58,194 nucleotides of DNA, taken from Azoarcus sp. Lineage in GTDB: Bacteria > Pseudomonadota > Gammaproteobacteria > Burkholderiales > Rhodocyclaceae. Shown in pieces: positions 38,549 to 58,194 of this stretch. The position numbers and the translations under genes are program-made. The DNA is taken from the NCBI GenBank assembly GCA_020725025.1, contig DYFV01000026.1:1-58194 (forward strand), in the 5' to 3' direction. The notes beneath the pieces are model-generated. The model saw nothing but the letters and a program-made list of their open reading frames with translations, had not been told where the DNA came from and did no database searches. Numbering within the stretch: the stretch's first letter is position 1; the number at the start of each line of letters is the position of its first letter.

Positions 38549-38785
38549 GTTGGTGCTTGCGCCGCCCGTCCAGGGCGCGAAGTTAAACGGGAAGCAGGGC
38601 TCCCGCCGCGTGCGTCCATCCGGACCTCGCGCATGGGAACAACCTGCGCTGCCCCCGCAACGGTAAGCGATGCGGTCCTTCCGGACCGGACGCCCATCCT
38701 GCAGCCACTGGTCGCGTTTCCTGGAAACCGGCCGGGAAGGCGATGACGTCTCGCACCGCAGCCCGGATACCGGCCAACGAGGTGG
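38549..38785 (+). promoter_or_regulatory. Cobalamin (B12) riboswitch
   Basis: The conserved blocks of the cobalamin aptamer appear in order: GGTGC at the 5' end, GTTAAACGGGAAGC, the B12 box GCTGCCCCCGCAACGGTAA (about 38649-38667), GCGATGCGGTCC, CAGCCACTGG, CCGGGAAGGCGATG and the closing AGCCCGGATACCGGCC. This is a complete adenosyl/methyl-cobalamin-sensing leader. It controls the exbB-like, DUF2149 and cobN-like genes; bound B12 would reduce their expression. Confidence 0.96.
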
Positions 38786-39000
38786 ACGTTGCACGCTCGC
38801 CTGTGCGCCGTCTTGTGAGCCGCCCGGCCGTCGGGGAAGACGGAGGCGGCAACCCAGCAGTGACCCGACGATGACATTCCGACCCTCTGCGGCCGCCGTT
38901 ACGAAGCGGCCCTCCGCGTTCGCGCTCCTGCGCCGGACGCACGCCGCCTATCCGCTCGCGGCCGACACGATCCACGCCTGCGTACTTCCGGAGCTCGAAC
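38786..39000 (+). other. Long leader between the riboswitch and the exbB-like gene
   Basis: About 215 bases with no supported gene. A hairpin GGCCGC (38891-38896) with GCGGCC (38906-38911) lies in the middle and may belong to the expression platform. No clear T-run terminator is seen, so regulation may be at translation or through Rho. Confidence 0.4.
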
Positions 39001-43876: not shown

Positions 43877-44353
<477 letters not shown>

Positions 44354-44374
44354 GGCGGGCTCCTTGGATTAAGA

Positions 44375-44388
44375 ATTCATAATTGTCC
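44375..44388 (-). promoter_or_regulatory. Putative GntR operator upstream of mce
   Basis: ATTCATAATTGTCC matches 11 of 14 bases of 29556-29569 in the mutase promoter, including the whole ATTCATAATT core. It lies 22 bases upstream of the mce start codon, in an AT-rich patch suitable for a promoter. Confidence 0.5.
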
Positions 44389-44458
44389 TGCGACATTTGC
44401 AGAACTTCAATAAAAACAGTAAGATGCGCTATGTGACTTGATCCATATGTGCGTTATT

Positions 44459-44476
44459 TGTGCAACTTCTTGCACA
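44459..44476. promoter_or_regulatory. Inverted repeat upstream of the integrase gene
   Basis: TGTGCAA (44459-44465) and TTGCACA (44470-44476) form a perfect 7-bp inverted repeat with spacer CTTC, 19 bases before the integrase start. It may be an operator, or an RNA hairpin that hides the ribosome site. Confidence 0.5.
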
Positions 44477-44495
44477 CAGACGCGGGAAATAGACC

Positions 44496-45668
44496 ATGGG
44501 CATACATGCGCTCAAGACCGGAAAGTTTAGAGTACAAGTCCGCAAAAAGGGCCTTGCACCGTACGATAAAGTTTTCGATACCCTCGCCGAGGCGGAGGCG
44601 GCTCTCGCCGAGCGCGAGCGCCTGACGAGCCGCGCCCGGGCAGCGGACAGCACGCTTCGCGAAGTGTGGGATCTCTTCGTTTCCTCGACGGCCTGGCACA
44701 ACCTCGCCGAGAGCACGCAGAGCACTTACAAGCAAAATGTCCGGCCGGTGCTCGAAGAACTCGGCGACTACTCGCTCGCCGTCCTTGCCGACAATACAGA
44801 GATCGTGCGCCGGCACTTCGACGCCCGGACCCGCGAAGGGCGAGCAAATGAGACTGTGCGCCTAGAGATCGCATCGCTGTCCGCCGCGGTCGCTTTCGCA
44901 AAAGCTCGCGGCTACATCAGCTACAACTTCGTACGCCAGGTCGATCGGCCCTCGGTTAAGCGCCGGGTCCGTCGTGTCGCGCCTGTGGAAAAAGCCGGCC
45001 TGCAGGTAGCTGCGCTGAGTGATCGTGCTGCGGCCCAGCACGCGCGCTTCAATCTGATCTTAGGGTACGTCGGCTGCCGGCCTGGGGAGCTTGCGAAAGT
45101 GCTCAAAGCCGACATCAACCTCCCGCGGAGCGAGATTACGTTCCGCGGCACCAAAAATCGCCGCTCCCGGTGCGTCCATCTGCCGAGCGAGGCACACGGG
45201 CTTGTCCGCACGCAGTTCGCGATCAGCCCCGCCGAGTCGCCGTACCTTTTTAGTCGGCGCACGCGGGCGGGCGCGTACGCCCCATACAGCTACAACAACG
45301 GCCATCGACAGCTCAAGCGCAACGGGGTAGTCGATAAGACGTATCACCCGCACGCGATGCGGCGCGAATTCATTTCCCGCGCGATCGAGCAGTCCATCCC
45401 GCTCACGACGCTCAAGCATCAGACGGGTCACAAGTCGACCCAGGCCCTCGAAGCCTACGATGAAGCGTGCGCCACGGCTCCGGAAGTGCGCGCCGTTTTC
45501 GAAGCAATGACCCGGACGCAGAAAGACGACATGCTCGTCGCGATGGCGCAGCAGCTCGGGATGAGTCGCGAAGACCTGGAGCGCGTCTTCGGTGTGAAGG
45601 TACCGGATCCTAGCGGACTCATCAGCTTCGAGGAGCGCGTCGCCCGCAAGCGCCGGCCAGGCACGTAG
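44496..45668 (+). CDS. Tyrosine recombinase / integrase
   Basis: A 390-residue site-specific recombinase. The N-terminal arm and SAM-like core-binding region (about 1-150) precede a catalytic domain with Arg195 in GCRPGELAK, His286 and Arg289 in HPHAMRRE, His312 in HQTGHKS and the nucleophile Tyr321 in ALEAYDEA. This is the full R-H-R-H-Y set, so it is likely active. It opens the accessory region and points into it, directly beside the mce promoter, which suggests that one attachment site is near 44390-44490. No tRNA target was found. Confidence 0.93.
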   Translation: MGIHALKTGKFRVQVRKKGLAPYDKVFDTLAEAEAALAERERLTSRARAADSTLREVWDLFVSSTAWHNLAESTQSTYKQNVRPVLEELGDYSLAVLADNTEIVRRHFDARTREGRANETVRLEIASLSAAVAFAKARGYISYNFVRQVDRPSVKRRVRRVAPVEKAGLQVAALSDRAAAQHARFNLILGYVGCRPGELAKVLKADINLPRSEITFRGTKNRRSRCVHLPSEAHGLVRTQFAISPAESPYLFSRRTRAGAYAPYSYNNGHRQLKRNGVVDKTYHPHAMRREFISRAIEQSIPLTTLKHQTGHKSTQALEAYDEACATAPEVRAVFEAMTRTQKDDMLVAMAQQLGMSREDLERVFGVKVPDPSGLISFEERVARKRRPGT

Positions 45669-45669
45669 C

Positions 45670-45876
45670 TCACTCCACCCGCTCGTACCCGTGAGCGGTC
45701 CTACGCTTGTCGATGTCCGCGATCACCGCATCCGCCTCCTCCGCACTCCCCACGGGCACTGATCGCACCCGAGGCGGCGTCCGCCCGCCGTGCGCCACGA
45801 GCACGACCTGATTTCCGAAAAGATCCTCGGTCCGCTCGACTACGTAGTACCTGCCGTCATCCCGCACGTATCGCAT
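45670..45876 (-). CDS. WGR-like small protein
   Basis: A 68-residue protein starting at ATG 45876, with GGAGG upstream. The pattern RYYVVERTEDLFGNQVVLV, then HGGRTPPRVRSVPV, EEADAVI and KRRTAHGYERV, resembles a stand-alone WGR domain (DLFG, aromatic/Gly turn, HGYER-type end). WGR domains bind nucleic-acid ends in PARPs and occur alone in bacterial mobile elements. The WGR triad itself is changed to HGGR here. Role unknown. Confidence 0.65.
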   Translation of the reverse strand: MRYVRDDGRYYVVERTEDLFGNQVVLVAHGGRTPPRVRSVPVGSAEEADAVIADIDKRRTAHGYERVE

Positions 45877-45908
45877 GCCGCACCTCCACAGGCCGGACCA
45901 AGCCGACC

Positions 45909-45946
45909 TGTGGATAATTACAGCACACAAGATGACTTGTGGATAA
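45909..45946. promoter_or_regulatory. Two perfect DnaA boxes
   Basis: TGTGGATAA occurs at 45909-45917 and again at 45938-45946, both identical to the DnaA box TTATCCACA on the minus strand, 29 bases apart. They lie in the only AT-richer gap of this stretch, between the coupling-protein and WGR-like genes. They could be part of a replication origin of the element, or a DnaA-regulated promoter for the WGR-like gene. Confidence 0.6.
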
Positions 45947-45993
45947 CTCCTTTTGTACGGTCATCCCAGCCCGTTCCGACCGTCTCCCACGCG

Positions 45994-48009
45994 TCACAGC
46001 ACGTCGAAGTCGTCCACGTACTCCCTACCTGCCTTCGCCGGCTTCGAGGCAGACGCAGGCGCAGCCGGCTTGTCTGCCCCGGTGTCCGCCGGCTCGTCGC
46101 AAGAGAGCGGCTCATCCGTGATGGGATCATCCGAGTGAGGGTGATCCGAGATCGGGTCGACCGAGTCGGGCTCGCCCCACGCCTGGTCGGGCTCGAGGGC
46201 AGGCTGAGCGTGCTCGTACGGCTCGATGCGCTCTACGTGCGCGGGCACGGGGGCGGTCGGGGCGGCCGAGAGGTTCGGGTTGACCGGGAGGGATGCGGAG
46301 GAAGAGTGGGTGGGGGCGGAAGAGGGGCTGGGGGAGGACGAGAGCGGCTCGATGAGCGAGAGATCGATGTCACCTTCCCCGGCGTCGGCACCCTGCGCGG
46401 CATCCGCGGCAGCGGCAGATCTGGTGTGTGGTACAGCGGCGGGCGCGGGACGGATCACATCCGATGTGATCGGCGCCTTAATTGCCTGGCGTTGCGTCCA
46501 AGTCTCATCCTTGAACCACAACGACTGCTTGCCGTATATCGGCGGGCTGCCGGCTACGAAGACGAGCATGTCGCCCGGCACTTCGATCCGATCACCGTTC
46601 TTCACCGGCCCCGGTAGCCGCATGCACTCGTCCGGCGTCAATAAGGGACGGCTGATTGCTTGCAGCGAGATGGAGTGCGATTTGCCCGCGACGGAGAGCA
46701 TGCTGTCGCGCGAAGTCGAGATGTTTTGCTGATGAATCGTCGTAGTCCCACACATTTTGGAGAGCAGCTCGGCTGTCGAGACCTCGTTGGTCGGATAAGC
46801 AATGTGAATGTGACAGTTGCTGATGATCGAATCAGCCGCTACGCCGTAGGCCTTGGGGGACTTCATCTGCGCGAGATTCTGCGTGATCAGGAACATCCTG
46901 ATGCCGTACCCGGCGGTAAACGCGATCGAATCTAGAATCGCATCCAGTCTTCCAAACGCCGGAAATTCATCTAAGAGCAGCAGCAAATTGTGCTTCGGTT
47001 TCGCTTCGATGCTCTCCGTCAATCGCGCGATCAGCTGAGTGAGCAGAATCCGGATGAGCAATCGCACCCGAACCTGGTCACCGGGAGGCACGACAAGATA
47101 GAGCGACACCGGCTTGTCTCCGTGCATCAGATCGCTCAGCGCGAACTCCGAAACGGAGGTGTTCGCAGCAACCAGGGGATCTGCGAAAAGCGATAGGTTT
47201 GCAAGGGCGGAGCTGATGACGCCGCCACGCTCACGGTCAGCTTTTGTGAGCATTCGACCTGCCATGTCGCGCACAGCAGGATGGGTGAGCGTCGTCGTGC
47301 CGTCGGCCTGCACAGACCAGTAGTAGTGCTCCCCAGGCAAAGCATGTCGCGCCTCCGCGAGTGCTTTGAATGCCTCTGTCGTGGGGTCCGCCTCCGGGTC
47401 GGAAGGTGTCGCGAGAGCCATTCCGGAGAGGAATTCCAGGAGACCCGCGAGATTTTTCTTCTCGGCAGGCACGTCGGGTGAGTACAGCAAGTGCACCAGT
47501 GCGCCGGTTGTAAGATCGATCGCGGAATTGGTCCAGTGAGCGTTAGAGCCGTCTTTACCGGTACCTGTAGGATCCATCAGTATCGTTGCGATGTTCTGTA
47601 TGTCCCGAATCTCGTCAAGGGACTTCAGCCGGATCTCCGTGAGCGGGTTGTAGCGCACCGAACCCGCTTCTGGGGCGACTTTTCCGCCCGCTTCCAACGG
47701 CCGGGCGGTGGGATTGAACATCAGTACGTGCTGGCCTGCAGCGCGCCGATATCCTGCGGTCAAGGCCCAGTTCTCGCCCTTCAGATCTGTGACGACCACA
47801 GAATCCTGCAAGGTGAGCAGCGTCGGCACGATCAGCCCGACACCCTTGCCCGAACGGGTCGGTGCGAAGCACAAGATGTGCTCAGGACCGCAGTGCTTGA
47901 GATAGTGCAGCACGCCGGTCTCAGGTTCGAGCCAGCCGCCGACGATGACTGCACCACGCTTTGGCTTGGCAGCTTTGGGCTTGCGAAAGAGGCTGGAAAG
48001 CATGGTCAT
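45994..48009 (-). CDS. virD4: VirD4/TraG-type coupling protein, ATPase part
   Basis: A 671-residue type IV secretion coupling ATPase. ATG at 48009 overlaps the upstream stop (ATGA). Walker A FAPTRSGKGVGLIVPTLL lies at about 48-65, then VVTDLKGENWALTAGYR, Walker B NLLLLLDEFPAFG and the motif FLITQNLAQMKS. The usual N-terminal membrane segments are absent and are encoded by the upstream gene. The C-terminal about 170 residues are low-complexity, acidic and Pro/Ser-rich. Coupling proteins feed relaxase-DNA to a conjugation channel; no relaxase or VirB genes are in this window. Confidence 0.92.
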   Translation of the reverse strand: MTMLSSLFRKPKAAKPKRGAVIVGGWLEPETGVLHYLKHCGPEHILCFAPTRSGKGVGLIVPTLLTLQDSVVVTDLKGENWALTAGYRRAAGQHVLMFNPTARPLEAGGKVAPEAGSVRYNPLTEIRLKSLDEIRDIQNIATILMDPTGTGKDGSNAHWTNSAIDLTTGALVHLLYSPDVPAEKKNLAGLLEFLSGMALATPSDPEADPTTEAFKALAEARHALPGEHYYWSVQADGTTTLTHPAVRDMAGRMLTKADRERGGVISSALANLSLFADPLVAANTSVSEFALSDLMHGDKPVSLYLVVPPGDQVRVRLLIRILLTQLIARLTESIEAKPKHNLLLLLDEFPAFGRLDAILDSIAFTAGYGIRMFLITQNLAQMKSPKAYGVAADSIISNCHIHIAYPTNEVSTAELLSKMCGTTTIHQQNISTSRDSMLSVAGKSHSISLQAISRPLLTPDECMRLPGPVKNGDRIEVPGDMLVFVAGSPPIYGKQSLWFKDETWTQRQAIKAPITSDVIRPAPAAVPHTRSAAAADAAQGADAGEGDIDLSLIEPLSSSPSPSSAPTHSSSASLPVNPNLSAAPTAPVPAHVERIEPYEHAQPALEPDQAWGEPDSVDPISDHPHSDDPITDEPLSCDEPADTGADKPAAPASASKPAKAGREYVDDFDVL

Positions 48010-48428
48010 TCTCCGAGAAGGCCGGTTTTTTCGATGTCGCGGCGAACCGCCCATCGCGCGGATCCGTGTACGTCGGCCTCGGCGTGCACGGGCTGAGCGA
48101 GCATCCATTTCGCGGGGAAGACGATCAGGATGGCCGCATAGGCCCAATTGAGATGAAGGAATACACCAGCGAATGCAGGCACTTTTCGCAGCGCATCCCA
48201 ACCCCACCAAGCGTGCGGGGCCATCACCGGGTGGCCAGCGACCACCCCGAGCGGCTCACCGAGCTCGCGGAACCAACCGCCGGCCAACCTCGCCATCTCG
48301 ACAGCGGCCCAGGAACTCGCGATCGTGTGCGCGAGGACCTGCGACGCAAGCACGATGACGAGCAACAGGAGCCAGCGGCCGCCCGCGTTGTAGCGACCCG
48401 GCAGCGTGTAGAGCGGAGTCTCACTCAC
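48006..48428 (-). CDS. VirD4/TraG-type coupling protein, N-terminal membrane part (separate gene)
   Basis: A 140-residue protein with two hydrophobic segments (about 18-38 and 88-110) separated by a periplasmic loop. It ends in HGSARWAVRRDIEKTGLLGE. HGSARWA is the signature that in ordinary VirD4/TraG joins the membrane region to the ATPase domain. Here a TGA follows, and the next gene resumes in another frame with a 4-base overlap. The coupling protein is thus either naturally split in two subunits or broken by one frameshift. Confidence 0.85.
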   Translation of the reverse strand: MSETPLYTLPGRYNAGGRWLLLLVIVLASQVLAHTIASSWAAVEMARLAGGWFRELGEPLGVVAGHPVMAPHAWWGWDALRKVPAFAGVFLHLNWAYAAILIVFPAKWMLAQPVHAEADVHGSARWAVRRDIEKTGLLGE

Positions 48429-48441
48429 GACGTGCCCTCGC

Positions 48442-48873
48442 TCAGAAGCGATACCGGGCCATCAGCCCGACCGCGCTCTCGGAGCCAGCTACGCGACCGA
48501 CTTCCACGACCGCAGCCCAGCCGTAGCTTCGGTACCCGCTGCGATACTCGACTCCGAGCGCGCGGTAGTCCGCATCGACGCCGCCCATCAAGCGGCCGGC
48601 CTTGATGTACGGACTCAGGGTCCGACCGTCGTAGCCGAGCACGAGCGCCCCGTGGGAGTAAGTCGTGTCGCCAGCCGTCACGCCGACTTCGAGGCCGGCA
48701 CGGAGCCCGCTATTGCCGAGATCACCGTCAATGCCTGCTGCGACGCTGACTTGAGCGCCCGGGCCGGTGAGCGAGCGCACACCCATATCGACGTACGACT
48801 CGACAGCGAGGGCCGGGCCAGCCGCGAGCAAAGCGGCGGCGAGGGAGAGGGAAGGGATGAGTTGTTTGCGCAT
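48442..48873 (-). CDS. Small outer-membrane beta-barrel-like protein
   Basis: A 143-residue protein starting at ATG 48873, with a signal peptide cut after ALA (about residue 23). The mature part alternates polar and hydrophobic residues with many Gly/Tyr, and ends in GLMARYRF: a terminal Phe typical of outer-membrane barrels. Eight strands would fit. No specific family recognised. It precedes the split coupling-protein genes by 14 bases and may be co-transcribed. Confidence 0.65.
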   Translation of the reverse strand: MRKQLIPSLSLAAALLAAGPALAVESYVDMGVRSLTGPGAQVSVAAGIDGDLGNSGLRAGLEVGVTAGDTTYSHGALVLGYDGRTLSPYIKAGRLMGGVDADYRALGVEYRSGYRSYGWAAVVEVGRVAGSESAVGLMARYRF

Positions 48874-48981
48874 GATGATGGACTCCGAAAATGGGTATCG
48901 ATGTCCACATGTAGCGAAGTTATCGCCGGCGCCCGCACCCAGGGGTAGACTGGCGGGAAGAGAATGACGGGGGAGTGATGT

Positions 48982-49662
48982 GTGGCGCATTCGGGGATCG
49001 TAAGAGCGCTGCAGCGCGGGGATATTCACCGCGCGGTGATGCTCGCGCAAAGGGCCGTGCGGCAGGAGCCTCGTGTCGCGCTGGAGATGATCCAGAGCGC
49101 GGATCCTGCTGACCGTCCGCTGCTCGTCACGCTGCTACGTGACGTCATCACCGACTACCCACGCACCCTGATCGGTGCCCCTGTGCTTCTGCGCTGGAGC
49201 TCAGCGCGCGATATTCTTGAGCTGCCTGTCCCCGACTCACTCGATCCGAATCCGGACGAGGGGCTTGAATTCGTGGCCTGGCTGCCGCACAACGCCTACA
49301 TTCCCGCCGAGCTGCCGGCGCCTGGCGATCCTCCAACGACGGTGACCATCGCGACCCACTGCATCCAGTGTGCAATCGCCGTCTTCCGGGCCGCGGCCGA
49401 CGCGCCTGATCCCGCCGATCACGACATTGAGCACGCCTGGTGGGCGACGCTATTCAGCGCGACGCCCCTGCAGGATACGGTCTATCTATCAGCGCGCATG
49501 CTGCTGCCGTACCCGGATGCGCTCGAGGCAGCGCGGGTGCTCTACAGCACTGCGACCGCAGGCAAGCCGCCCGTGCAGCGGGCCGCGTTCCTGACCGACC
49601 ATGCGTGGGCGTGGGCCGTCGATGCGGGATTGCAGTACCGCACGCACCGGAGCGAGAGCTAG
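48982..49662 (+). CDS. Hypothetical protein (226 aa)
   Basis: A reading frame starting at GTG 48982, with GGGGGAGTG upstream, divergent from the barrel-like gene. It is mostly helical, with an N-terminal part rich in Arg/Ala (GDIHRAVMLAQRAVRQEPR) that resembles a degenerate TPR helix pair. No catalytic motif or membrane segment. Codon use looks genuine. Its last bases overlap the convergent DUF2442-like gene by 4. Confidence 0.55.
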   Translation: MAHSGIVRALQRGDIHRAVMLAQRAVRQEPRVALEMIQSADPADRPLLVTLLRDVITDYPRTLIGAPVLLRWSSARDILELPVPDSLDPNPDEGLEFVAWLPHNAYIPAELPAPGDPPTTVTIATHCIQCAIAVFRAAADAPDPADHDIEHAWWATLFSATPLQDTVYLSARMLLPYPDALEAARVLYSTATAGKPPVQRAAFLTDHAWAWAVDAGLQYRTHRSES

Positions 49663-50054
49663 CGCTCGCCCTCGTCCTCGTCCTCGTCCGGGACCGGATC
49701 GACGCGCTCAAGACCTACATCCGGGCCCCAATCCACCTCCGTTAAGCGCGCACCGGTAGCGTCGCCGTGGTGGAGATCGTCGAGCACATACCGCATCGTC
49801 TCCCGAGTAGCCGGGACCGACCGATCCCAAAGCATCTCGCGCGCGATCTCAATCCCGCCCGGCCAGCACACCGTCCCGAGCGCCGGATCCACAAAAGTCC
49901 GTGCAAACTCGGCCGGATCTTTCAATCCAGCGAATGGCGGCTTATCCAGCAGCGGGCGCATGTCGAAGCCCCGGCGCTGCCCGCCCTCGAATGCGATCAG
50001 CAGCTTGTAGTCCGGCCGCGCGATCACCGCTACGACATCCAGCAGCTCATTCAT
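49659..50054 (-). CDS. DUF2442-like protein
   Basis: A 131-residue protein starting at ATG 50054, with GGAGGGAC upstream. The first about 75 residues match the DUF2442 layout: YKLLIAFEGGQRRGFDMRPLL, then FVDPALGTVCWPGGIEIA. Such proteins often sit beside toxin-antitoxin-like or mobile-element genes, and their function is unknown. The C-terminal third is acidic (DPVPDEDEDEGER). Confidence 0.7.
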   Translation of the reverse strand: MNELLDVVAVIARPDYKLLIAFEGGQRRGFDMRPLLDKPPFAGLKDPAEFARTFVDPALGTVCWPGGIEIAREMLWDRSVPATRETMRYVLDDLHHGDATGARLTEVDWGPDVGLERVDPVPDEDEDEGER

Positions 50055-50127
50055 CGTCCGTCCCTCCCGCAGTCGATTGTAGCGGCTATCCCCCGTCTCA
50101 CTCCGCACGACGCGCCGCGCTTCCCGG

Positions 50128-50220
50128 AATCAGACATTTTTCAGACAGAACTGGCGGCAATCGAACAATTTTCAGACAGCATCGGGGCGAATCGTACATT
50201 TTTCCGACAAACAGGCCCGG
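50128..50220. repeat. Three tandem 31-bp repeats (iteron- or transposon-end-like)
   Basis: Copies at 50128-50158, 50159-50189 and 50190-50220 follow each other with no gap. Each starts AATC and contains an ACATTTTTCAGACAG-type core (variants ACAATTTTCAGACAG and ACATTTTTCCGACAA), then a GC-rich end. On the other strand the core reads TGTCTGAAAAATGT. The copies are upstream of the DUF2442-like gene and the 319-aa gene. Confidence 0.85.
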
Positions 50221-50605
50221 CGCGCTAGCTGAGTCAGCACAAGAGCCGACACCCCGCCGCCACGCGTCGTAATCGCGAAGCGGGGGCGTCCCGGTCCTTT
50301 CGCCCGCTCGATCGCCTCCCTCTACCACACCACGAATGAGGATCTCACAGCCAGAGCCGGGCTCCCCGCTTGCTCCCCGCGCCTGCCCGCCCGACCGCGC
50401 ACGACGTATGGATTTTTTACGCAGTTGGGATTCGCGGCGCTATACGGAGTGTCCAGCAGCGTCTTACAAGATGCCGCAGCAGACAGACCATATCCGCAAC
50501 CCCATCACGTCAAAGAGGAGGAGCCCCGGCTGCCATGCCGGAGGTCAGATACATGCATAGATAAAGGGAGATTTCGTTTAGAGCAGCGCAGTCGGGCAGC
50601 ATCAC
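50221..50605. other. Gene-free stretch upstream of the 319-aa protein gene
   Basis: About 385 bases with no supported gene. A small hairpin CCGGC, TGCCAT, GCCGG lies near 50526-50541, and AGGGAG occurs near 50566. The short readings here lack ribosome sites and family features. Confidence 0.35.
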
Positions 50606-51565
50606 ATGTCCGACACCAGCACCAGCACCACCCCAAGCACCAGTAGCAGCAGCACCCAAGCGGCATGGACCGCAGGCCAGGAAGGCTTGGTCGAAAAGGC
50701 CCTGCAAAAGAAGAACACTTTCTCGGAGAAGGACTGGGCCGAGGCCGAGGCCCGCCAGGCGCGTGTCGTAGCGTACATCCGCCGACACACCGACCTCCCT
50801 TGCGTCGCATTTGCCCAGGGCTTCGCGGCCGAGGCGACCGGTCGCGTTGAAGGTCTCCCGCATGAGCAAGGCATCGAACCCGCACTCGCAGACCTGCGCC
50901 TGGAGCGCGTCTATCAGCATCGTCCCGCGCACGTCCACATCGAAGTCTCGGGCACTGGCGCATACATCCCAGAGGGCGCTCCGCTCTTCGTCAAAGTCGA
51001 GAAGCTTCAGCAGCAGCAGCGCACGGGCGATGACAAGCTCATTATGCTCGTCTATGACAAATTCGCCGAGTCCGGCCGGGTGGGTGCGAAGGGCATCGCC
51101 TTGGCCATTCCCGCAAATGCCTTCGATTTTTCAGGGGATTTTCGCGCTCGGTACAGCGATCCGAAGGGGTATCACATTGCCAGTGTCCGTGGCCAGCTGA
51201 TGCTCGCGCTGCCGCCCACGACCGAATACCGGCTCACGCCCAGGCAATTTGTCGCGCACATCGAGCGCTCGCTCAATCGCGCGCACTATGACCGCCTCTC
51301 CCCGGAGCAGCGCTCCGCAGACGCGGAATTCCATGCCGCCCTCGAAGCCGACGTGACCCGCCGCCATGAGCTCGATCGCTCGTACCTCGATCAGCGTGCT
51401 CAGCTCACCCTCGCCGGCAATCGAGTCCGGCCGCTCGACCAGCGCGAGCAGCAGCAGCTCGCAAAGCTCGGTGCGCTCAATGCTGACGCGGTCGTCCGGG
51501 AGTATCGCGCTGCGATCGGCTGGCCCGAGCGGAGCCGCGACCGAGGCCTGGACCAGGGGCGGTGA
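50606..51565 (+). CDS. Unknown protein (319 aa) encoded before the CRISPR-repeat-mimic RNA
   Basis: The N-terminus is Ser/Thr-rich and probably disordered (about 1-20). A middle domain (about 100-215) has beta-like stretches (HVHIEVSGTGAYIPEGAPLF; KLIMLVYDKFAESG), and the C-terminal part (about 215-319) is a charged helical region. There is no signal peptide, membrane segment or recognised motif. It ends 50 bases before the promoter of the RNA array and runs in the same direction. It could be a replication, mobilisation or anti-defence protein of the element; none is supported by sequence alone. Confidence 0.6.
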   Translation: MSDTSTSTTPSTSSSSTQAAWTAGQEGLVEKALQKKNTFSEKDWAEAEARQARVVAYIRRHTDLPCVAFAQGFAAEATGRVEGLPHEQGIEPALADLRLERVYQHRPAHVHIEVSGTGAYIPEGAPLFVKVEKLQQQQRTGDDKLIMLVYDKFAESGRVGAKGIALAIPANAFDFSGDFRARYSDPKGYHIASVRGQLMLALPPTTEYRLTPRQFVAHIERSLNRAHYDRLSPEQRSADAEFHAALEADVTRRHELDRSYLDQRAQLTLAGNRVRPLDQREQQQLAKLGALNADAVVREYRAAIGWPERSRDRGLDQGR

Positions 51566-51615
51566 CGGGGAGGAGGGGGTAAGCGAGGAGCAGAACAGAA
51601 AATGACACCACCCTC

Positions 51616-51645
51616 TTGACAAGATGTCAATACTGTGAGAGTATT
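51616..51645 (+). promoter_or_regulatory. Promoter with two nested palindromic operators
   Basis: A perfect -35 box TTGACA (51616-51621), 17 bases, then GAGTAT (51639-51644) as a weak -10. TTGACA pairs with TGTCAA (51625-51630) around AGA, and AATACT (51629-51634) pairs with AGTATT (51640-51645) around GTGAG. The two palindromes cover the -35 to -10 interval, so a dimeric repressor could shut this promoter. It faces the repeat-mimic array. Confidence 0.65.
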
Positions 51646-51669
51646 CACCTCGTCGTCACGCAGCACCGA

Positions 51670-51696
51670 CGGCACCGCTGCGAAGCGGCTTAGAAG
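51670..51696 (+). repeat. I-F-like repeat mimic 1
   Basis: Stem CCGCT (51675-51679) and AGCGG (51684-51688), loop GCGA, tail CTTAGAAG (51689-51696). The tail differs from the type I-F 3' handle CTTAGAAA at one base. Loop is 4 rather than 5 nt. Confidence 0.7.
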
Positions 51697-51755
51697 CAAA
51701 ATGATCGCGACTCAGAAATGCCTAGCAATCGCAGGCAGATCTAAGCGATCCGCAG

Positions 51756-51783
51756 GACCACCGCCGGATAAGCGGCTCAGGAG
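51756..51783 (+). repeat. I-F-like repeat mimic 2
   Basis: 28 bases, the canonical I-F length: 5-base lead, CCGCC (51761-51765), loop GGATA, AGCGG (51771-51775), tail CTCAGGAG. The fifth base pair is a C-A mismatch. Confidence 0.65.
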
Positions 51784-51842
51784 AAAAGCATCCGCGCATG
51801 CGGATATGCTCCGCAGTAAGTGTCAAAGCATCGACACGATGC

Positions 51843-51870
51843 GATTACCGCCGGATAGGCGGCTTAGCAG
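51843..51870 (+). repeat. I-F-like repeat mimic 3
   Basis: 28 bases with exact I-F geometry: 5-base lead, CCGCC (51848-51852), loop GGATA, GGCGG (51858-51862), 8-base tail CTTAGCAG. The stem is perfect. It abuts the first I-E-like unit. Confidence 0.75.
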
Positions 51871-51898
51871 TCTCCCCCGCGCTTGCGGGGATGCTTCA
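51871..51898 (+). repeat. I-E-like repeat mimic 1
   Basis: Stem CCCCGC (51875-51880) and GCGGGG (51885-51890) with loop GCTT, then AT and GCTTC. Stem, 4-nt loop and the AT after it match the I-E repeat core (CCCCGC, GCCA, GCGGGG, ATA). Confidence 0.75.
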
Positions 51899-51902
51899 AA
51901 AT

Positions 51903-51927
51903 CATCCGAAAGGATGTGGATTTAAGC
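51903..51927 (+). repeat. I-C-like repeat mimic 1
   Basis: Stem CATCC (51903-51907) and GGATG (51912-51916), loop GAAA, tail TGGATTTAAGC. The tail resembles the I-C 3' end GTGGATTGAAAC. Confidence 0.6.
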
Positions 51928-51989
51928 GAGCTGGCTCTCGAAGCCATGCAAAGACGAGCATCCGTGTCGCCGGGCGCAAGTCTCAGCAG

Positions 51990-52017
51990 CACCTCCCCCG
52001 CGGTTGCGGGGATCGCC
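51990..52017 (+). repeat. I-E-like repeat mimic 2
   Basis: Stem CCCCGC (51996-52001) and GCGGGG (52006-52011), loop GGTT, then ATCGCC. Its 3' end overlaps the start of the second I-C-like unit. Confidence 0.75.
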
Positions 52018-52039
52018 CGCAAGGGCGTGGATTGAAAGC
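52014..52039 (+). repeat. I-C-like repeat mimic 2
   Basis: Stem CGCCC (52014-52018) and GGGCG (52023-52027), loop GCAA, tail TGGATTGAAAGC. The stretch GCGTGGATTGAAA (52025-52037) is identical to the conserved 3' part of type I-C CRISPR repeats. Confidence 0.8.
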
Positions 52040-52043
52040 GACA

Positions 52044-52082
52044 GCAAAAGGCCACGAGAAATCGCGGCCTTTTTGCTTTTTG
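52044..52082 (+). terminator. Intrinsic terminator of the repeat-mimic RNA
   Basis: GCAAAAGGCC (52044-52053) pairs with GGCCTTTTTGC (52066-52076, one extra T) around a 12-base loop, followed by TTTTT. It begins 5 bases after the last I-C-like unit. Confidence 0.88.
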
Positions 52083-52094
52083 CCTGTCACGTAC

Positions 52095-52137
52095 GACATA
52101 CCGACCGAACGTGCATTGCTCGGTCGGTCGGTATGTC
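52095..52137. terminator. Long perfect hairpin between the RNA unit and the pilus operon
   Basis: GACATACCGACCGA (52095-52108) and its exact complement (52124-52137), 14 bp, 15-base loop. It stands between the convergent repeat-mimic RNA and the pilus operon end (52144). It probably ends the minus-strand operon, though no T-run follows. Confidence 0.65.
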
Positions 52138-52143
52138 TGCCTG

Positions 52144-52635
52144 TCAATATGAGATCGTGAGCGCGAAAGTCCGCTGCGCGATCTCACCGCTGCTCAGGAA
52201 GCCACCGCCCGGGCCCGCTCCCGTCGCACGCACGTACACCGTCGCATCAATCTGCTCACCCATCGGCGCGCCGGTGTCCGGGGCTGTGCCCGAGATGCCC
52301 GGGCCGCTGGCCAGGGGCGTCGAACAGCTCGGGTCCGAGTAGAGCCCGACTTCGACCTGCTCGCCGCTCGTGAGCGTCGTGCTCTGCAGATCGAGATCCG
52401 ACTTGACCGTGTACGCTACACCCGCATCACAGATTGCAATGAGCTGTACAGTCGTAGTCGCCGGCGAAGCGAGATCTGCTGTCGACAGCGACTCTGCCGT
52501 AGCCGACGCCCAGTTGCAGGTCGGCAGCACGTCGACGGAGACCGGCACATCGACCGACAGCGATGCCGCTGACGCGAGGCTCGAGAGCGAGCCAAGAGCC
52601 GCTGCGATCAAGAATTGCTTGATATGTAGGGTCAT
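52144..52635 (-). CDS. Spore coat U/SCPU-domain pilus subunit (archaic chaperone-usher type)
   Basis: A 163-residue secreted protein: signal peptide ending ASA, then a domain with paired Cys residues (VLPTCNWA; LIAICDAG; DPSCSTPL) and the C-terminal motif AQRTFALTISY, the beta-strand end typical of SCPU/CsuA-type subunits. It is the last gene of a four-gene chaperone-usher operon. It could be a structural subunit or a short tip protein. Confidence 0.85.
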   Translation of the reverse strand: MTLHIKQFLIAAALGSLSSLASAASLSVDVPVSVDVLPTCNWASATAESLSTADLASPATTTVQLIAICDAGVAYTVKSDLDLQSTTLTSGEQVEVGLYSDPSCSTPLASGPGISGTAPDTGAPMGEQIDATVYVRATGAGPGGGFLSSGEIAQRTFALTISY

Positions 52636-52647
52636 TTCGAGGCTCCA

Positions 52648-53142
52648 TTAGTACGAGATAGTGAAGACATTGCTCAGCGTCGTGGTCACCGGGCCGAGTG
52701 CTGCTCGACGCCCGCTGCCGCGCACAATGCCGCCGGTCACAGTGAGCGTCTCATCCCCGCCCATGCCAGCGCTCGTGTACTGCATGCCGCTTCCGGTCGG
52801 TCCGAGCGGTATCCCGCCGAGCGTCGCGTCGACCATCTCGAGCTCGAGAGTCGACTCGGGTGTGACTTGCGACTGATATGCCCACGCATTGCCTAGCGCA
52901 ATGGCATACGGCGCATCCATCGAGCAGTTGACGGTAAGCGTGATGTCAGCCGGGACGCCGCTCGGGGTGAAGAGCTCAGCAGACTGCACTGAGCCAAGCT
53001 CGACTTGCTGCGCAGACGCAGTGCAGCTCGCGCCAATGCTGCCGCCGATCGATACACTCGTCGTGTCCTCGCCGGCGTGTGCGCTCACTGCAGCTGCGAG
53101 AGTGGCCGCTGCGAGCAAGGGGGTGGTGAATCTTTTTGTCAT
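52648..53142 (-). CDS. Spore coat U/SCPU-domain pilus subunit
   Basis: A 164-residue secreted protein: signal peptide ending AHA, mature part with GASCTASAQQVELGS and LTVNCSMDAPYAIAL (one disulfide pair), ending SNVFTISY. It shares the plan of the following gene, with low identity. It is probably the major subunit because it directly follows the usher gene (48-base gap). Confidence 0.85.
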   Translation of the reverse strand: MTKRFTTPLLAAATLAAAVSAHAGEDTTSVSIGGSIGASCTASAQQVELGSVQSAELFTPSGVPADITLTVNCSMDAPYAIALGNAWAYQSQVTPESTLELEMVDATLGGIPLGPTGSGMQYTSAGMGGDETLTVTGGIVRGSGRRAALGPVTTTLSNVFTISY

Positions 53143-53189
53143 GAGTAGAGTCTCCTCGGTTAGGGTTGGTAGTTGGATATAGCAGCGAC

Positions 53190-55382
53190 TCAGCCGCAGT
53201 CAGCGCGTAGCTCAGTGCCGATCTCGATTCGCGAAGGCACCTCGACCTCGAAGCGGCACTCGCCAGCGCGGCCCAGGTGCCGTCCTGACCGGAGACCTTC
53301 GACGTAGTAGCCTCCGTCCGTGAGCCGCCAGCCACGCTTTCCTGCGATCTCGACGACCGCGGCGGTTGCGCCGGCGACATCGAGGAGCACGCCTGGACGC
53401 TGAGCAGTGAGCTCCACGGTCACCGGGCCGTGGCGATACGGCGTGCCAGACGCGCTATCCACTGCGAGCAGGGTCGGCGGAAGTGAGTCGCTGTCGAGCT
53501 TGTAGATGTTGAGCAGGTATGCATTTGCCGGGAGGATCGCGACGCCTGCTGAGTCCGTCCTGCCAGCCATGCGCATGCCGTGCATGACCGGCACACCGGA
53601 CCCAGCATCCGGAACGTGCACGACGGCATACGCATCTCGGATTTCGCGCGTCGCGTGGAGCGACCCGGCTGCGGCTACGATTGCTCCAGTCGCGACTACC
53701 GAGCTTGCACCGCCTCGGCCGCCATCTAGCTGCGTCATCGAGCCCTGGATCTCGCCTTGCAAGCCGGCGTAGCTCACGTCCGCACGCTGGTATCCAGCGT
53801 GCTCGGATTGCGATGCGGTTAGCATTGCGCGCATCCCGGTGTAGCCCGAGCGCGCGTACTCGAGCGTCTCGACAGTCTGACTTCCGAGCGATCGGCCACC
53901 GTCCACTATGCTGCGGCGTGTGCTCACGGAGCCGCGCAGGCGGTCCCACGACCAGCGCAAGCTGGCGTAGACGGCGCGGGTCTCGCCCGAAGCCTCGGCG
54001 GAGATCGACGCCGACAGGCCGCTGCTGAGCGAGCTAGAGATGCCGATCGCGTTCCGCTCGTGCTCGCCATACCGAACGTGAGTCGCAGAGATCGACGTGC
54101 GGTCCGTGACGCGCCAGGTCGCCGTCGCTGTGCTCTGCCGCGCGATCGGGCGGCCGTCGAGGTCGCGGTGCTGCCCCGGCTCCGTCACGGCCGCAGCGAG
54201 GGAGTAGCGCGGCGTGGAGTAGTGATATGCAACGCGACCGAGCACGCCCTGCCCGTCATTGCCAACCGCAGCGGAGCCGATGAGCGTGCCCAGACGGGTG
54301 GCCCATGTCGCCGTCAAGCCCGCGCGGCCCGATGAGCCCGCAATCTCGCCGTGGCCCTCCAGCGTCAGCGTATCCGTGATGCCGCGGCTGTATGTCGCGC
54401 TCGCAAATCCAGGCCCGGTCTCATCGAGACGCAGACCTCGGCGCAGTGCGCCCGCCTCGAATGCGAATTCGGCGAGGCCCCCGCGGAGGTTGTACGGCGC
54501 ACCGATCAGCTCGGTCGTGATGAGCTGCGTTGCACCGGAGATGTCCGTCACCTGAGCCGTCACGGTGCCGCCCGCGGCATACGGGAGCTGGATGCCGTCG
54601 ATCGCGAAAGGACCGGCGTTGAGCTCCGCAGAGCCTGAGCGCCGACCGTCGACAAAGAGCTGTGCCGTGCCTGGGGCCGTGCTGACGCCGGAAAATGCGA
54701 GCGTAGGCCGGGTCACGTACCCCGGTTGCAGCGTGCGATCAGTGCGGTACTGCAAGCCAATGTAGCGTCCGGCCGCGCCCCAGGTGCCGGGCGTTGAATA
54801 GCTCGTGCCGAGGCGCAGGCTCTCGCGAGCGGCAGGCATGCGCAGAGTCGCGGACAGGTCGCCTACGATCGGGCGTGACGCGGAATTGACACCCAGGGTG
54901 CTCGCGATGTCCCAGCCGCTGGCAGTGGTGATGTGGCCCTCGAAGAGGCCGTACTGGCGCTCATGGCCAGCGAAATTGTCATGACCCAGGCGGTAATTGA
55001 CGTAAGCACCGGTCTCCGCGACCGGAGTAGCGCGCATCGGCTGCGCAAGCCTGACGCGTGACACCGGAAGCCGATCGGGGGGGAGCGTGAGCGTGGCAGT
55101 CAGCGTCGCGAGATCGACTGAGACTGTGCCGAGCGACGTGAGCTCCACGTGCTCGAGATGATCGATGTCGAGCCTGCGCCAGCCCTCGACCTCGGTCAGG
55201 CCCAGGGCCTCGAGGTCCTGGGGTGCGACGTAGTAGCGCCCGGCATCCTCTCGCACGAGCACGTCGCGTGCTGGCTGCCGGAGCCCGGCGACTTTAACGC
55301 CGAGAAGCATGTCCTGCGCAGCGGACGCAGCGCCAGGGAGCGCAAGCGCGAGGAGCAGGCAGAGCAGGCGCGGCCGCATCAC
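53190..55382 (-). CDS. Outer-membrane usher, archaic chaperone-usher pilus
   Basis: A 730-residue usher: signal peptide ending ASA, N-terminal chaperone-subunit binding domain (about 25-125), a long beta-barrel with the usher pattern FVDGRRSGSAELNAGPFAIDG and a plug-like segment, and C-terminal domains ending RIEIGTELRADCG. Length is at the short end for ushers (about 750-850). It overlaps the chaperone gene by 4 bases. It resembles CsuD-type more than FimD-type ushers. Confidence 0.9.
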   Translation of the reverse strand: MMRPRLLCLLLALALPGAASAAQDMLLGVKVAGLRQPARDVLVREDAGRYYVAPQDLEALGLTEVEGWRRLDIDHLEHVELTSLGTVSVDLATLTATLTLPPDRLPVSRVRLAQPMRATPVAETGAYVNYRLGHDNFAGHERQYGLFEGHITTASGWDIASTLGVNSASRPIVGDLSATLRMPAARESLRLGTSYSTPGTWGAAGRYIGLQYRTDRTLQPGYVTRPTLAFSGVSTAPGTAQLFVDGRRSGSAELNAGPFAIDGIQLPYAAGGTVTAQVTDISGATQLITTELIGAPYNLRGGLAEFAFEAGALRRGLRLDETGPGFASATYSRGITDTLTLEGHGEIAGSSGRAGLTATWATRLGTLIGSAAVGNDGQGVLGRVAYHYSTPRYSLAAAVTEPGQHRDLDGRPIARQSTATATWRVTDRTSISATHVRYGEHERNAIGISSSLSSGLSASISAEASGETRAVYASLRWSWDRLRGSVSTRRSIVDGGRSLGSQTVETLEYARSGYTGMRAMLTASQSEHAGYQRADVSYAGLQGEIQGSMTQLDGGRGGASSVVATGAIVAAAGSLHATREIRDAYAVVHVPDAGSGVPVMHGMRMAGRTDSAGVAILPANAYLLNIYKLDSDSLPPTLLAVDSASGTPYRHGPVTVELTAQRPGVLLDVAGATAAVVEIAGKRGWRLTDGGYYVEGLRSGRHLGRAGECRFEVEVPSRIEIGTELRADCG

Positions 55383-55975
55383 TGGACCCTATATTCAGCG
55401 CCGCTGCGGCCGACGAGGGCTTCGATGCCAGCAGCGGGGAGGCGGAGCTCTGCGCTCGAGCCAGGCAGCACGTAGAGCATCGTCGAGCGCTTGCCGTCTG
55501 CGTCGCGGTAGCCAGTGATGAGCTCCGTGACGGCCCCGGTATTCGCGACCCGCAGCGCACCCTCGTCTCCTCGCGTTACCGCGACCACCGGCTTTGCGCC
55601 GGGATCGGTCGGCGGGACAAAGACGGGCAGCGAGAAAGAGATCGAGCCGCCCTCGATAGCACGAATCATCAAGCGATACGTGCCCTCGACTGGCCCGCGA
55701 GGCACGCGCGAGAGCACTTTGATCGCCTGTTTGCCACCCGGCTGAACTTCAAAAACTGGCGGATACGCAAGGACCTCTCGCGTCGGGGATTGCGAATCCT
55801 GAGTCCACTTCAGGACGGCTACTTCGTAGCGTGCGATGCCTTTGTCGGTCGAGGAAAAGGTCAGTGTCTGGGATGGCTTGTCGAGATCGACGCGCAGTCG
55901 GTCCGTACCAGTCGCGTGAGCAAGGGGCGCGGCAGCGAGGGCGGCGAGAAGAGCGGGGAGGAGGGCAGTACGCAT
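55379..55975 (-). CDS. Periplasmic pilus chaperone, CsuC-like
   Basis: A 198-residue PapD-like chaperone: signal peptide ending HATG, first Ig domain with RYEVAVLKWTQ and YPPVFEVQPGGKQAIKVLSR, the EGTYRLMIRAIE strand, and a second domain. It delivers subunits to the usher encoded next. First gene of the operon, read leftwards. Confidence 0.88.
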   Translation of the reverse strand: MRTALLPALLAALAAAPLAHATGTDRLRVDLDKPSQTLTFSSTDKGIARYEVAVLKWTQDSQSPTREVLAYPPVFEVQPGGKQAIKVLSRVPRGPVEGTYRLMIRAIEGGSISFSLPVFVPPTDPGAKPVVAVTRGDEGALRVANTGAVTELITGYRDADGKRSTMLYVLPGSSAELRLPAAGIEALVGRSGAEYRVQ

Positions 55976-56290
55976 AATAGGCTCATGAGAAATGGATGGT
56001 CATGAACTCATATAGCGTCGCCGTCGAAAGCGTCGGCGCCGGGCCAGCCTCCCTGACTCCTCGGCGTTCTCCGACCGGCATCAGATCCGCCGGTTCGCTG
56101 CCACACATATGTGGTTCGGCTACCGCAGCCAGACAATGTCGGCATTATTTACATCGGGCACCACAAGAGGTACGGTACTTGTTTCCAAGACATTGTCACG
56201 ACACTGGAACTACCAGAACGGCATAGTAGTTGCTATCGAATCTCCGCACGCGAAACGGCGTTGCCATCCACAAGGAAGGGGAGGTTCGAG
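55976..56290. other. Divergent promoter region between the pilus operon and a lipoprotein gene
   Basis: About 315 bases with no supported gene. TTCCA and TGGAA near 56188-56214 frame a weak dyad, and AAGGGGAGG near 56274-56283 is the ribosome site of the next gene. No clear promoter was identified. Confidence 0.35.
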
Positions 56291-57727
56291 ATGAAAAAAC
56301 GACTCGCCGCCGTGATCCCGGCACTGTTTCTCAGTGCCTGTGGAACGGTTCCGCTCTTTGAGCAGCCGAACGAACTCGCTCAGAAATGGACCGAACGAAT
56401 GCAGCAGTACCGGATCATTCCGGTGTTTCCGCCCCGCGAAGACATCCAAGTGGGGGACATCTACCTTGCCTGTCTACCCAAGCGGAGTGGCGACCAGAAC
56501 CTCGTCTTCGACCTCGGCGAAGGGCCGGCACCCTTATGGGTTGCTTCTGCGCCCAAGGTGGTGGGAAAAGGGGGGCTGCTGGAAGAGTTCTACGCCACCA
56601 GGGTTGCGATGCCGGAAACGCGAGTGGTGGAGACGAATAAGCAGGGAGATGACGGCAACTTGCAGAAGGTCGCTTACAACGCGAGTAAAGTTCCGGTAAG
56701 TGACACAGTCTTCCAGTCCGGCGTCTCGAACCGACTTCGGGTGGTCTCTTTCCCTGAGTTCTTCTCCGTGAAGGCGAGCGGAGGCGGCATTAGCGGGCTC
56801 ATACCGACGCCCGCCGTTCTTGCGGGGTTTGCCGTTTCCGCAGACCAAGTCGAGTCCATCAGCGTGTCGATCCCGGTCGCCGAGTCCTACGGCCTGCCGG
56901 CCGCGGTGCTCGATCGAGCGATCAAAGGGATCGATGCCGACACCATGCAAATAATGCATGCCTTGAGAGAGAGTATGCGGAATCGACCGAAAGACCACAC
57001 GGAGTACTGCAACGGAGAAACCACACTAATTGCAGTGTCGGAAGTGTTTGCGGCAAGAGCGATCAACGTGCAGATGAACTTCTCGGAATCCGCAGCAGCC
57101 AAGCTCGACACCGCACTTTATCTTGACCCTGATTCCACCCGCGCTGCGGTACTCGACGTACTCAAGGCGCACTACACTCCGCAGCAGCAAAAGGAGACAG
57201 TGGCCGACCAACAGAACGGAGCAGTTGCGCCGGGCGCTGAGACGACGGCGGTGGCCGTCACATCCAAGACCCCGCCCGCCCAGCCGGTCAACGTTGACAA
57301 GAGCGCTGCGTTGATTCGTGAGCTGAATACCCTGATTGCAAGCGTCGATAGCCGGACGAAACGCGAATATCCGGGCGTTACCATCAGCGCCTACCGCGGC
57401 GCCACGGCCGGTATCACTATGGTGCGTGAGTTTTCGAACCCGGTTGTGGTCGGCTATCGTGGCGTGACGATCTCCACCGTAATGCCCGCTCGAGCTGAAT
57501 CTCCGACTGTCCCTAACGCACCCAAGCCGCCGGAAGAGCCGGCTCAAAGTCCGACGATTCCCCAGGATGCCAGCAACCAACCTCCGGCTGCGGATACTCC
57601 ACCGGTACCCAATACAAACGGTACATCCATTGTCAGCGGTATTTCGCCCCCCGGAGCAGGGAGTGCGGTCCTAAGCGTAACTAACAAGGAACTGCAGAAG
57701 CGCATCAAGGATGCCCCGGTCCGCTAA
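56291..57727 (+). CDS. Large lipoprotein of unknown function
   Basis: A 478-residue protein starting at ATG 56291, with GGGGAGG upstream; signal peptide MKKRLAAVIPALFLSAC with lipobox LSAC. The mature part has no recognised domain. Two short related stretches (YPGVTISAYRGATAGITM and VVGYRGVTISTVMP) occur near residues 355-400, and a Pro-rich linker (about 405-455) precedes the end. GC content and codon use are lower than in the core region, suggesting recent transfer. Confidence 0.7.
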   Translation: MKKRLAAVIPALFLSACGTVPLFEQPNELAQKWTERMQQYRIIPVFPPREDIQVGDIYLACLPKRSGDQNLVFDLGEGPAPLWVASAPKVVGKGGLLEEFYATRVAMPETRVVETNKQGDDGNLQKVAYNASKVPVSDTVFQSGVSNRLRVVSFPEFFSVKASGGGISGLIPTPAVLAGFAVSADQVESISVSIPVAESYGLPAAVLDRAIKGIDADTMQIMHALRESMRNRPKDHTEYCNGETTLIAVSEVFAARAINVQMNFSESAAAKLDTALYLDPDSTRAAVLDVLKAHYTPQQQKETVADQQNGAVAPGAETTAVAVTSKTPPAQPVNVDKSAALIRELNTLIASVDSRTKREYPGVTISAYRGATAGITMVREFSNPVVVGYRGVTISTVMPARAESPTVPNAPKPPEEPAQSPTIPQDASNQPPAADTPPVPNTNGTSIVSGISPPGAGSAVLSVTNKELQKRIKDAPVR

Positions 57728-57769
57728 AAGCGAAGCGCCGCACCCGTCACCACGATCTTTGTCTTTGAA

Positions 57770-57790
57770 GGGCCCGCGCATCGCGGGCCC
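57770..57790. terminator. Hairpin after the lipoprotein gene
   Basis: GGGCCCGCG (57770-57778) and CGCGGGCCC (57782-57790) form a perfect 9-bp stem with loop CAT. It lies between the convergent lipoprotein gene and the partial gene at the window end. No T-run. Confidence 0.6.
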
Positions 57791-57882
57791 CGTGGCGCTG
57801 CGCGTTGTCAGACACACTTACCGCCCGATGCCGGTCGGCTGGATGGTGATCACTAAAGCATCCATGAACGTGCGTATGCAGC

Positions 57883-58194
57883 TTATTGTAGGCGCTCGAT
57901 CAACATTGCCCAGAGCATTTCGCCGGCCCCTTCCTGGGAGAGATTGTCTTCGCGGTGTCGCATGTTCATACCCAGCGGCTTCAGATACATGCTCTGATCG
58001 TCATGTTCGACTGAAAGCGACTCGTTGTAGCTGTTTCCCCGAGCCGAGGGATCGTAAGAGAAGGCAATGCTTGAGCTCCGAAAGCCGCCTGAGCCCAAAT
58101 GGATACTGCATTCGCTTTCCCGTTTCCCCGCTCGGTAGATCGCGGCCGTGAAAGTGTTACCATCGACGCGGTGGAACCGGCCCTCGATCCCCGG
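57883..58194 (-). CDS. Hypothetical protein, C-terminal part (runs off the window)
   Basis: An open frame enters from the right edge and ends with TAA at 57883-57885, giving 103 residues. It has a plausible beta-rich composition (FHRVDGNTFTAAIYRAGKRE; ESECSIHLGSGGF) and an acidic/polar end (MLWAMLIERLQ). No family recognised. The start lies beyond the window. Confidence 0.6.
   Translation of the reverse strand, partial: PGIEGRFHRVDGNTFTAAIYRAGKRESECSIHLGSGGFRSSSIAFSYDPSARGNSYNESLSVEHDDQSMYLKPLGMNMRHREDNLSQEGAGEMLWAMLIERLQ

Follow-up and report, generated by a model that had tools for sequence, protein, structure and literature searches.

Can a single small RNA imitate the CRISPR repeats of three different type I systems? 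A gene-poor interval near the right end of the DNA studied here raises this question. A reading made from the letters only (the sequence-only reading) saw hairpins resembling type I-F, I-E and I-C repeats in one transcription unit, and proposed that they form an RNA anti-CRISPR (Racr) of three specificities. The window, by which we mean the whole 58,194-nt stretch that was analysed, is contig C49 of a 5.44-Mb genome in 142 contigs. To answer the question, we consider where this interval lies, how its units are built and arranged, whether relatives and suitable host systems exist, and how well other explanations fare.

Inserted DNA and the borders of the element

Positions 43877-44384 align in all 17 genomes of the genus, the present one included, and the window to the left of 44384 is chromosomal. 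Similarity ends just inside a conserved AT-rich site, GGATTAAGAATTCATAATTATGG, which is uninterrupted in 11 of the 15 relatives inspected (in one of these it is slightly altered). At the insertion, the GC content per kb drops from 0.69-0.75 to 0.58-0.68. The features that bear on the setting of the element are as follows.

44385..58194, no strand: inserted DNA of lower GC content that carries the element; left edge at the conserved chromosomal site, right edge beyond the contig
44496..45668, + strand: tyrosine-recombinase integrase (Phage_integrase, 1.5e-13; phrog_1, 1.1e-42)
45994..48428, - strand: TraG/VirD4-type coupling protein, its N-terminal part in a different frame from the rest
50606..51565, + strand: ORF for a 319-aa protein of an unnamed family, immediately 5' of the element
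51616..51645, + strand: promoter-like region, judged from its sequence and inverted repeats
52043..52078, + strand: intrinsic terminator, judged from folding against shuffles

Taken together, the conserved left site, the integrase, the fall in GC content and the TraG gene place the RNA about 7 kb inside inserted DNA that is probably mobilisable. An integrase and a TraG protein in a lower-GC insertion also suggest the mobile-element setting, away from cas genes, that is expected of Racr/SRU elements. The splitting of TraG between frames denotes either a pseudogene or a sequencing error. No relaxase or further T4SS gene was found among the 19 proteins searched with Pfam or the 10 searched with NCBIfam.

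The 319-aa protein matches nothing in Pfam, NCBIfam, PADLOC or PHROG. Its predicted fold (pLDDT 77.8) has no significant match in the PDB, HincII being among the weak structural matches. The protein is rare: the protein database holds nine homologs besides itself and viral contigs hold one distant match, with no relatives in 394 other genomes of the family or in plasmids. Ahead of its gene, at 50128-50220, are three tandem 31-nt repeats with a AATCRNACAWTTTTCMGACA-like start; they are not CRISPR-like and are possibly iterons or an oriT-like array. Farther to the left in the window, a cobalamin riboswitch (38534-38792, 67.8 bits) lies upstream of cobN.

The RNA element occupies the interval between the 319-aa ORF (50606-51565, + strand) and spore-coat-U-like genes on the opposite strand (from 52144), whose Pfam score is slightly below the cut-off. 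ORFs overlap the repeat-like units in two frames (51635-51925 and 51798-52160). The promoter that had been claimed for the unit stands in part. Its -35 box, TTGACA at 51616-51621, is perfect and sits within a palindrome, TTGACAAGATGTCAA (51616-51630), that is overlapped by a second one, AATACTGTGAGAGTATT (51629-51645); its -10 is weak, and no sigma-70-type site came out of the promoter scan. The claimed terminator is confirmed by a strong fold at 52043-52078 (-19.5 kcal/mol, z -5.0; equalled by none of 200 shuffles), which a simple terminator scan missed. Just 3' of the terminator, at 52095-52137, two 21-nt arms separated by 1 nt form a near-perfect inverted repeat, which may be an operator-like site or belong to a bidirectional terminator. 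Over 52040-52140 there is a weak match, under the gathering score, to the Rfam sRNA Atu_L6.

Repeat-like units and their modular arrangement

We searched for units by strict rules: a 5-bp stem, a loop of 4-5 nt and CTYAG for I-F; a 6-bp stem, a 4-nt loop and AT for I-E; and a 5-bp stem, a loop of 3-6 nt and TGGATTKAA for I-C. The 433 nt of 51650-52082 contain seven such units (two I-F, three I-E and two I-C), all on the + strand; elsewhere in the 58-kb window, with both strands scanned, there is a single match, an I-E-like one on the minus strand at 15711. The motifs named in the sequence-only reading are all in place, on the + strand. Among 20,000 dinucleotide shuffles of the region, an I-F match appeared in 31, an I-E match in 231 and an I-C match in 1, and none contained all three types. 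Similarity to CRISPR repeats hence exceeds that of shuffled sequence for each of the three types, if not for every unit.

Between 51668 and 52046 the units are arranged in four head-to-tail modules of about 87 nt, each ordered I-F, I-E, I-C and free of internal spacers.

51668..51757, + strand: module 1; I-F unit at 51670-51696 (model R1, see below, 15.7 bits; stem CCGCT/AGCGG, tail CTTAGAAG), followed by I-E and I-C slots that are degenerate
51754..51844, + strand: module 2; I-F unit at 51756-51783 (one stem pair broken, tail CTCAGGAG), I-E stem at 51790-51805 (ATCCGC/GCGGAT), degenerate I-C slot at 51815-51842
51841..51930, + strand: module 3; I-F at 51843-51870, I-E at 51870-51898 and I-C at 51900-51926 (I-C by the strict motif), a triplet packed into 84 nt (51843-51926)
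51927..51958, + strand: extra piece of 32 nt between modules 3 and 4, with a hairpin of its own (TGGCT/AGCCA)
51959..52046, + strand: module 4; degenerate I-F slot (tail CTCAGCAG at 51980-51987), I-E at 51991-52019 and I-C at 52012-52038, the last two overlapping and the I-C tail being exactly GTGGATTGAAA

Eight of the twelve slots are recognisable, and module 3 is the only complete triplet. The spacing of the units had been called irregular; instead, they form modules of constant order. The I-F units begin 86-87 nt apart (51670, 51756 and 51843), and aligning the four blocks brings the I-F, I-E and I-C slots into register. For the neighbouring pairs M1/M2, M2/M3 and M3/M4, none of 1000 shuffles aligned as well; for M2/M4, M1/M3 and M1/M4, 31, 153 and 220 of 1000 did. 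Coding DNA favours lags in multiples of three. A periodicity at lag 87 was matched in 8 of 1000 shuffles and also in 83 of 286 stretches elsewhere in the window; because so many other stretches reach it, this periodicity alone is weak evidence, and it is the module alignments on which we rely. Part of the likeness between modules is due to shared mimicry. The modules probably descend from a common ancestor via tandem duplication. Modules 1, 2 and 4 seem to be decayed in part, a feature that the sequence-only reading did not mention. With eight units in 370 nt, the element also departs from the "solitary" rule for Racr/SRU elements, under which no other repeat lies within 100 bp.

Covariance models built from genuine arrays were run over the whole window with filters off. 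Model R1 (I-F) comprises all 16 distinct repeats from 22 array-bearing loci (24 inspected) beside Cas6f genes of the host order. Model R2 (I-E) comprises 10 of 11 distinct repeats beside Cas6e genes of that order, a truncated one being omitted; 30 loci were inspected for it, 19 of them without any repeat. Model R3 (I-C) comprises 32 hand-picked repeats of 44 distinct ones from GTDB loci, and its tail is over-weighted because all 44 came from a pattern that fixed GCGTGGATTGAAA. R1 ranks 51843 (28.0 bits, E 1.6e-6), 51670 (15.7 bits, E 0.029) and 51756 (14.5 bits, E 0.076) as the top three of its eight listed matches; R2 ranks 51991 (22.3 bits, E 2.9e-5) and 51875 (21.5 bits, E 5.4e-5) as the top two of 29; and R3 places 52012 (25.3 bits, E 1e-4) first of five. 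Under R2 the module-2 I-E unit scores 9.2 bits (E 1.4) and is outranked by unrelated places, and R3 lists no match at the module-3 I-C unit (51903); these two units are putative assignments made from motif and position. At gathering score, no CRISPR family in Rfam matches the element. At a laxer threshold, the best CRISPR matches from Rfam are CRISPR-DR9, which falls on the I-C unit at 52010-52038 (23.9 bits against a gathering score of 45), and CRISPR-DR4, which falls on the I-F unit at 51848-51867 (21.1 bits against 35).

Direct comparison with the array repeats that we collected (22 I-F, 11 I-E and 45 I-C) gives a similar picture. The I-F units of modules 1-3 agree with their nearest repeats at 19/28, 21/28 and 23/28 positions, the I-E units at 18/29, 22/29 and 21/29, and the I-C units at 20/32 and 25/33. 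This overall identity of 62-82% to the collected repeats is below the figure of at least 90% in the Racr/SRU rule. For six of the eight units, equal identity was reached at none of about 1980 random places; 19 of 1987 equalled the module-2 I-E unit and 9 of 1977 the module-3 I-C unit, where the I-C control used 15 repeats and the observed value all of them. At 14/29, the module-4 I-F slot does not stand out from random places. All told, the observation is real and goes beyond what the sequence-only reading described: one stretch combines mimics of I-F, I-E and I-C repeats, a central claim that survives both the shuffles and the models.

The stems offer a further, internal line of evidence. Between copies, two-sided changes that keep pairing occur in one I-F, two I-E and two I-C pairs, and one I-F pair is broken (module 2). 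Shuffles reached the covariation scores of the I-F, I-E and I-C alignments in 334, 52 and 109 of 500 cases, respectively; pairing is found in 93-100% of cells in the real stems and in no more than 70% in slid controls. Since the alignments hold two to three rows, this covariation is only suggestive of stems maintained through two-sided changes. When the predicted transcript is folded with a pairing span of 60, the mean pairing probability is 0.87-0.98 for F3, E3, E4, C3 and C4, 0.76 for E2, 0.15 for F1 and 0.02 for F2. Unrestricted folding gives 0.56 for E2, 0.44 for C4, 0.40 for E3, 0.11 for F1 and 0.01 for F2.

Relatives of the RNA and CRISPR types of possible hosts

Blastn of 491 bases against plasmids and phages returned no match at E 0.01, and no phage- or plasmid-derived spacer, which would have marked a decayed array, was detected in this way. 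At E 10, short fused units matched plasmids (29 and 28 records) and phages (97 records); the 15 examined in each set are weak, partial matches. Six type-order patterns found 6, 6, 0, 0, 27 and 6 loci in viral contigs, with no multi-type element in their matched contexts. Three viral-contig loci, seen by eye to have no array around the match, look like ordinary solitary repeat units: one I-F-like (L162, 9140-9215, minus strand) and two that look like single I-C units (L018 and L020). A GTDB scan for I-E followed by I-C yielded 57 loci: 45 are arrays, having four or more I-C tails, and the other 12 have just one or two tails and are not part of an array. Twelve of the collected loci were flagged by a scan for two-type clusters. 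Two of these (L001 and L024) are the present element; by eye, the other ten are I-C arrays whose second match shares bases with the I-C hairpin or falls within or next to a spacer.

A DNA search of 61 relatives, the element's own genome included, gave matches in 14, of which 13 are pieces of 24-41 nt. Positions 51946-51973 match one chromosomal place in two genomes of the same genus (G002 and G006) at 26 of 28 bases, probably by chance or through shared gene sequence. Relatives of the RNA were found neither in plasmids, phages and viral contigs nor in 60 other genomes (at the DNA level) or the GTDB pattern scan, the patterns being strict and covering some orders of the types.

The statement that no cas gene is near holds for the 19 window proteins scanned with Pfam, which include no cas family. 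Further, Cas1, Cas6f, Cas6e and Cas8c have no match in the whole of the element's own genome, and Cas6f occurs in none of the 17 genomes of the host genus. The matching CRISPR types do exist in the host order: in an even sample of 349 genomes, Cas6f is found in 23, Cas6e in 37 and Cas8c in 35, with six genomes in two of these lists and one (G486) in all three. Such mixed type I systems among hosts fit an element that meets different type I systems while moving.

The closest single repeat to any unit, at 23/28, is the I-F repeat of G441 (L139), the nearest real I-F repeat to module 3. It comes from a divergent I-F locus with a CCGCC/GGCGG stem and an ...AGAAG end, and adjoins ORFs that by eye resemble Cas7f and Cas1. 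L139 is one of four divergent Cas6f loci of the host order (L139, L140, L141 and L142) with repeats of this or a similar stem, three of them ending in AAG, and with unusual neighbours that by eye resemble Cas7f and Cas1.

A candidate polyvalent decoy and its alternatives

From these observations we infer transcription, Cas binding and anti-CRISPR function of the element. We think it likely that the predicted transcript of the four I-F/I-E/I-C modules at 51668-52046 is a polyvalent RNA anti-CRISPR that decoys the Cas proteins which bind repeats in all three systems. Cas6f, Cas6e and Cas5c recognise and cut repeat hairpins. The RNA would be made when the element enters a cell, or on induction, and the resident Cas6f, Cas6e or Cas5c would bind, and probably cut, the cognate hairpins. 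The resulting pieces would bear 5' handles and no target-matching guide; we propose that they would, for that reason, nucleate dead Cascade sub-complexes and divert Cas proteins from genuine crRNAs. It would be the host that decides which system is hit, and having several copies in tandem would give each transcript a higher dose and accommodate variants of the repeats. Some observations speak against this reading: no relative turned up in the searches, F1 and F2 have low pairing probabilities, four slots are unrecognisable, the -10 is weak and Cas6f is missing from the 17 genomes of the host genus.

Binding and cleavage of the transcript at its hairpins would follow the example of RacrIF1. According to Camara-Wilpert et al. 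2023 (PMC10651486), Cas6f binds and cuts RacrIF1, which sequesters both Cas6f and Cas7f and forms a dead Cas6f-Cas7f complex; Racrs against I-C, I-E, I-F and V-A are reported to work; and even a non-targeting crRNA lowers interference through competition. The fuller account, to which we incline somewhat less firmly, is that of a spacerless, modular, pan-type-I RNA anti-CRISPR. Here a composite cassette of about 87 nt would have been tandemly duplicated, with its stems held by two-sided changes, and the transcript, borne by a broad-host-range integrated element, would jam the type I system of a new host.

The alternative that survives best, though we regard it as improbable, is that the RNA was once a multi-type decoy but has lost its activity and is decaying, as a dead or dying remnant, together with the element that hosts it. 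Motifs are unrecognisable in four of the twelve slots, F1 and F2 fold poorly in the context of the transcript, and the adjacent TraG is split between frames. However, all three types persist in module 3, module 4 still has its I-E unit and an I-C unit whose tail is exactly GTGGATTGAAA, and a strong terminator follows. Less credible still is a multi-type guide RNA, in which the transcript would hijack resident Cascades as crRNAs against rival elements or a host gene. Each handle within a module is followed by the next mimic, not by a unique guide, and phages and plasmids gave no match at E 0.01. Cut pieces would bear 5' handles, and the 26/28-base match of 51946-51973 to one place in two genomes of the genus could be taken for a guide, but this partial match begins 20 nt past the I-C handle, outside the seed.

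We see very little chance that the locus consists of ordinary CRISPR mini-arrays of three types that lie clustered and have decayed, the DNA between units being old spacers. Orphan arrays likewise have repeat-like units without cas genes, yet here a fixed order of three types is repeated four times, units touch or overlap so that modules 3 and 4 have no spacer-sized gaps, and the search of phages and plasmids gave no protospacer match. An orphan CRISPR array as such, which would have near-identical single-type repeats and evenly sized unique spacers, was rejected on similar grounds, namely three types, divergent units and no spacers inside modules. Equally slight is the prospect that the hairpins are unrelated to CRISPR (REP-like palindromes, regulatory hairpins or chance), for although GC-rich hairpins are common and CCGCCGGATAAGCGG resembles REP sequences, no shuffle in 20,000 held all three types, the I-F core has two exact matches in its own genome, both in the element (with two mismatches, 6 further places versus 4 for the reversed control), and the I-C tail GCGTGGATTGAAA occurs there once. 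Dispersed palindromes of the REP kind were discarded as a candidate because many copies would be expected, and the exact I-F core and I-C tail are confined to the element.

If the polyvalent decoy reading is true, RNA anti-CRISPRs can be polyvalent, with one small gene covering three repeat-recognition systems. This would help to account for the entry of promiscuous mobile elements into hosts whose type I systems differ. It would also mean that repeat cassettes can evolve as spacerless decoys, and that finders demanding solitary units of at least 90% identity overlook such elements. No multi-type Racr is named in the titles and openings of abstracts searched in the open-access literature, and the units described in PMC10651486 and PMC11656645 are solitary and single-type.

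Comparison with known systems places the element closest to the Racrs. Genuine I-F, I-E and I-C arrays of the host order and GTDB share its stem geometry and tails, but have one repeat type each and regular, unique spacers. Viral CRISPR mini-arrays also bring repeat units into mobile DNA that has no cas genes; as characterised in PMC11656645, however, they have host-identical repeats and one or two spacers against related viruses, whereas the present repeats are divergent and have no evident spacer. CreTA/CreA (PMC10097628) resembles it in that a crRNA-like RNA engages the resident Cascade; the present element differs in that no toxin RNA or guide match was recognised and no cas operon adjoins it. 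Like RacrIF1-3, RacrIC1 and others presented in PMC10651486, it is a non-coding repeat mimic with hairpin and tail, on mobile DNA and away from cas. Those Racrs are solitary and of a single type, in contrast to the three types, four modules of about 87 nt and 62-82% identity found here. SRUFinder discards matches below 90% identity and repeats with neighbours within 100 bp, and so would pass over the present element. The best reading, by analogy, is that the element would work like the known Racrs while falling outside their definition as solitary and at least 90% identical.
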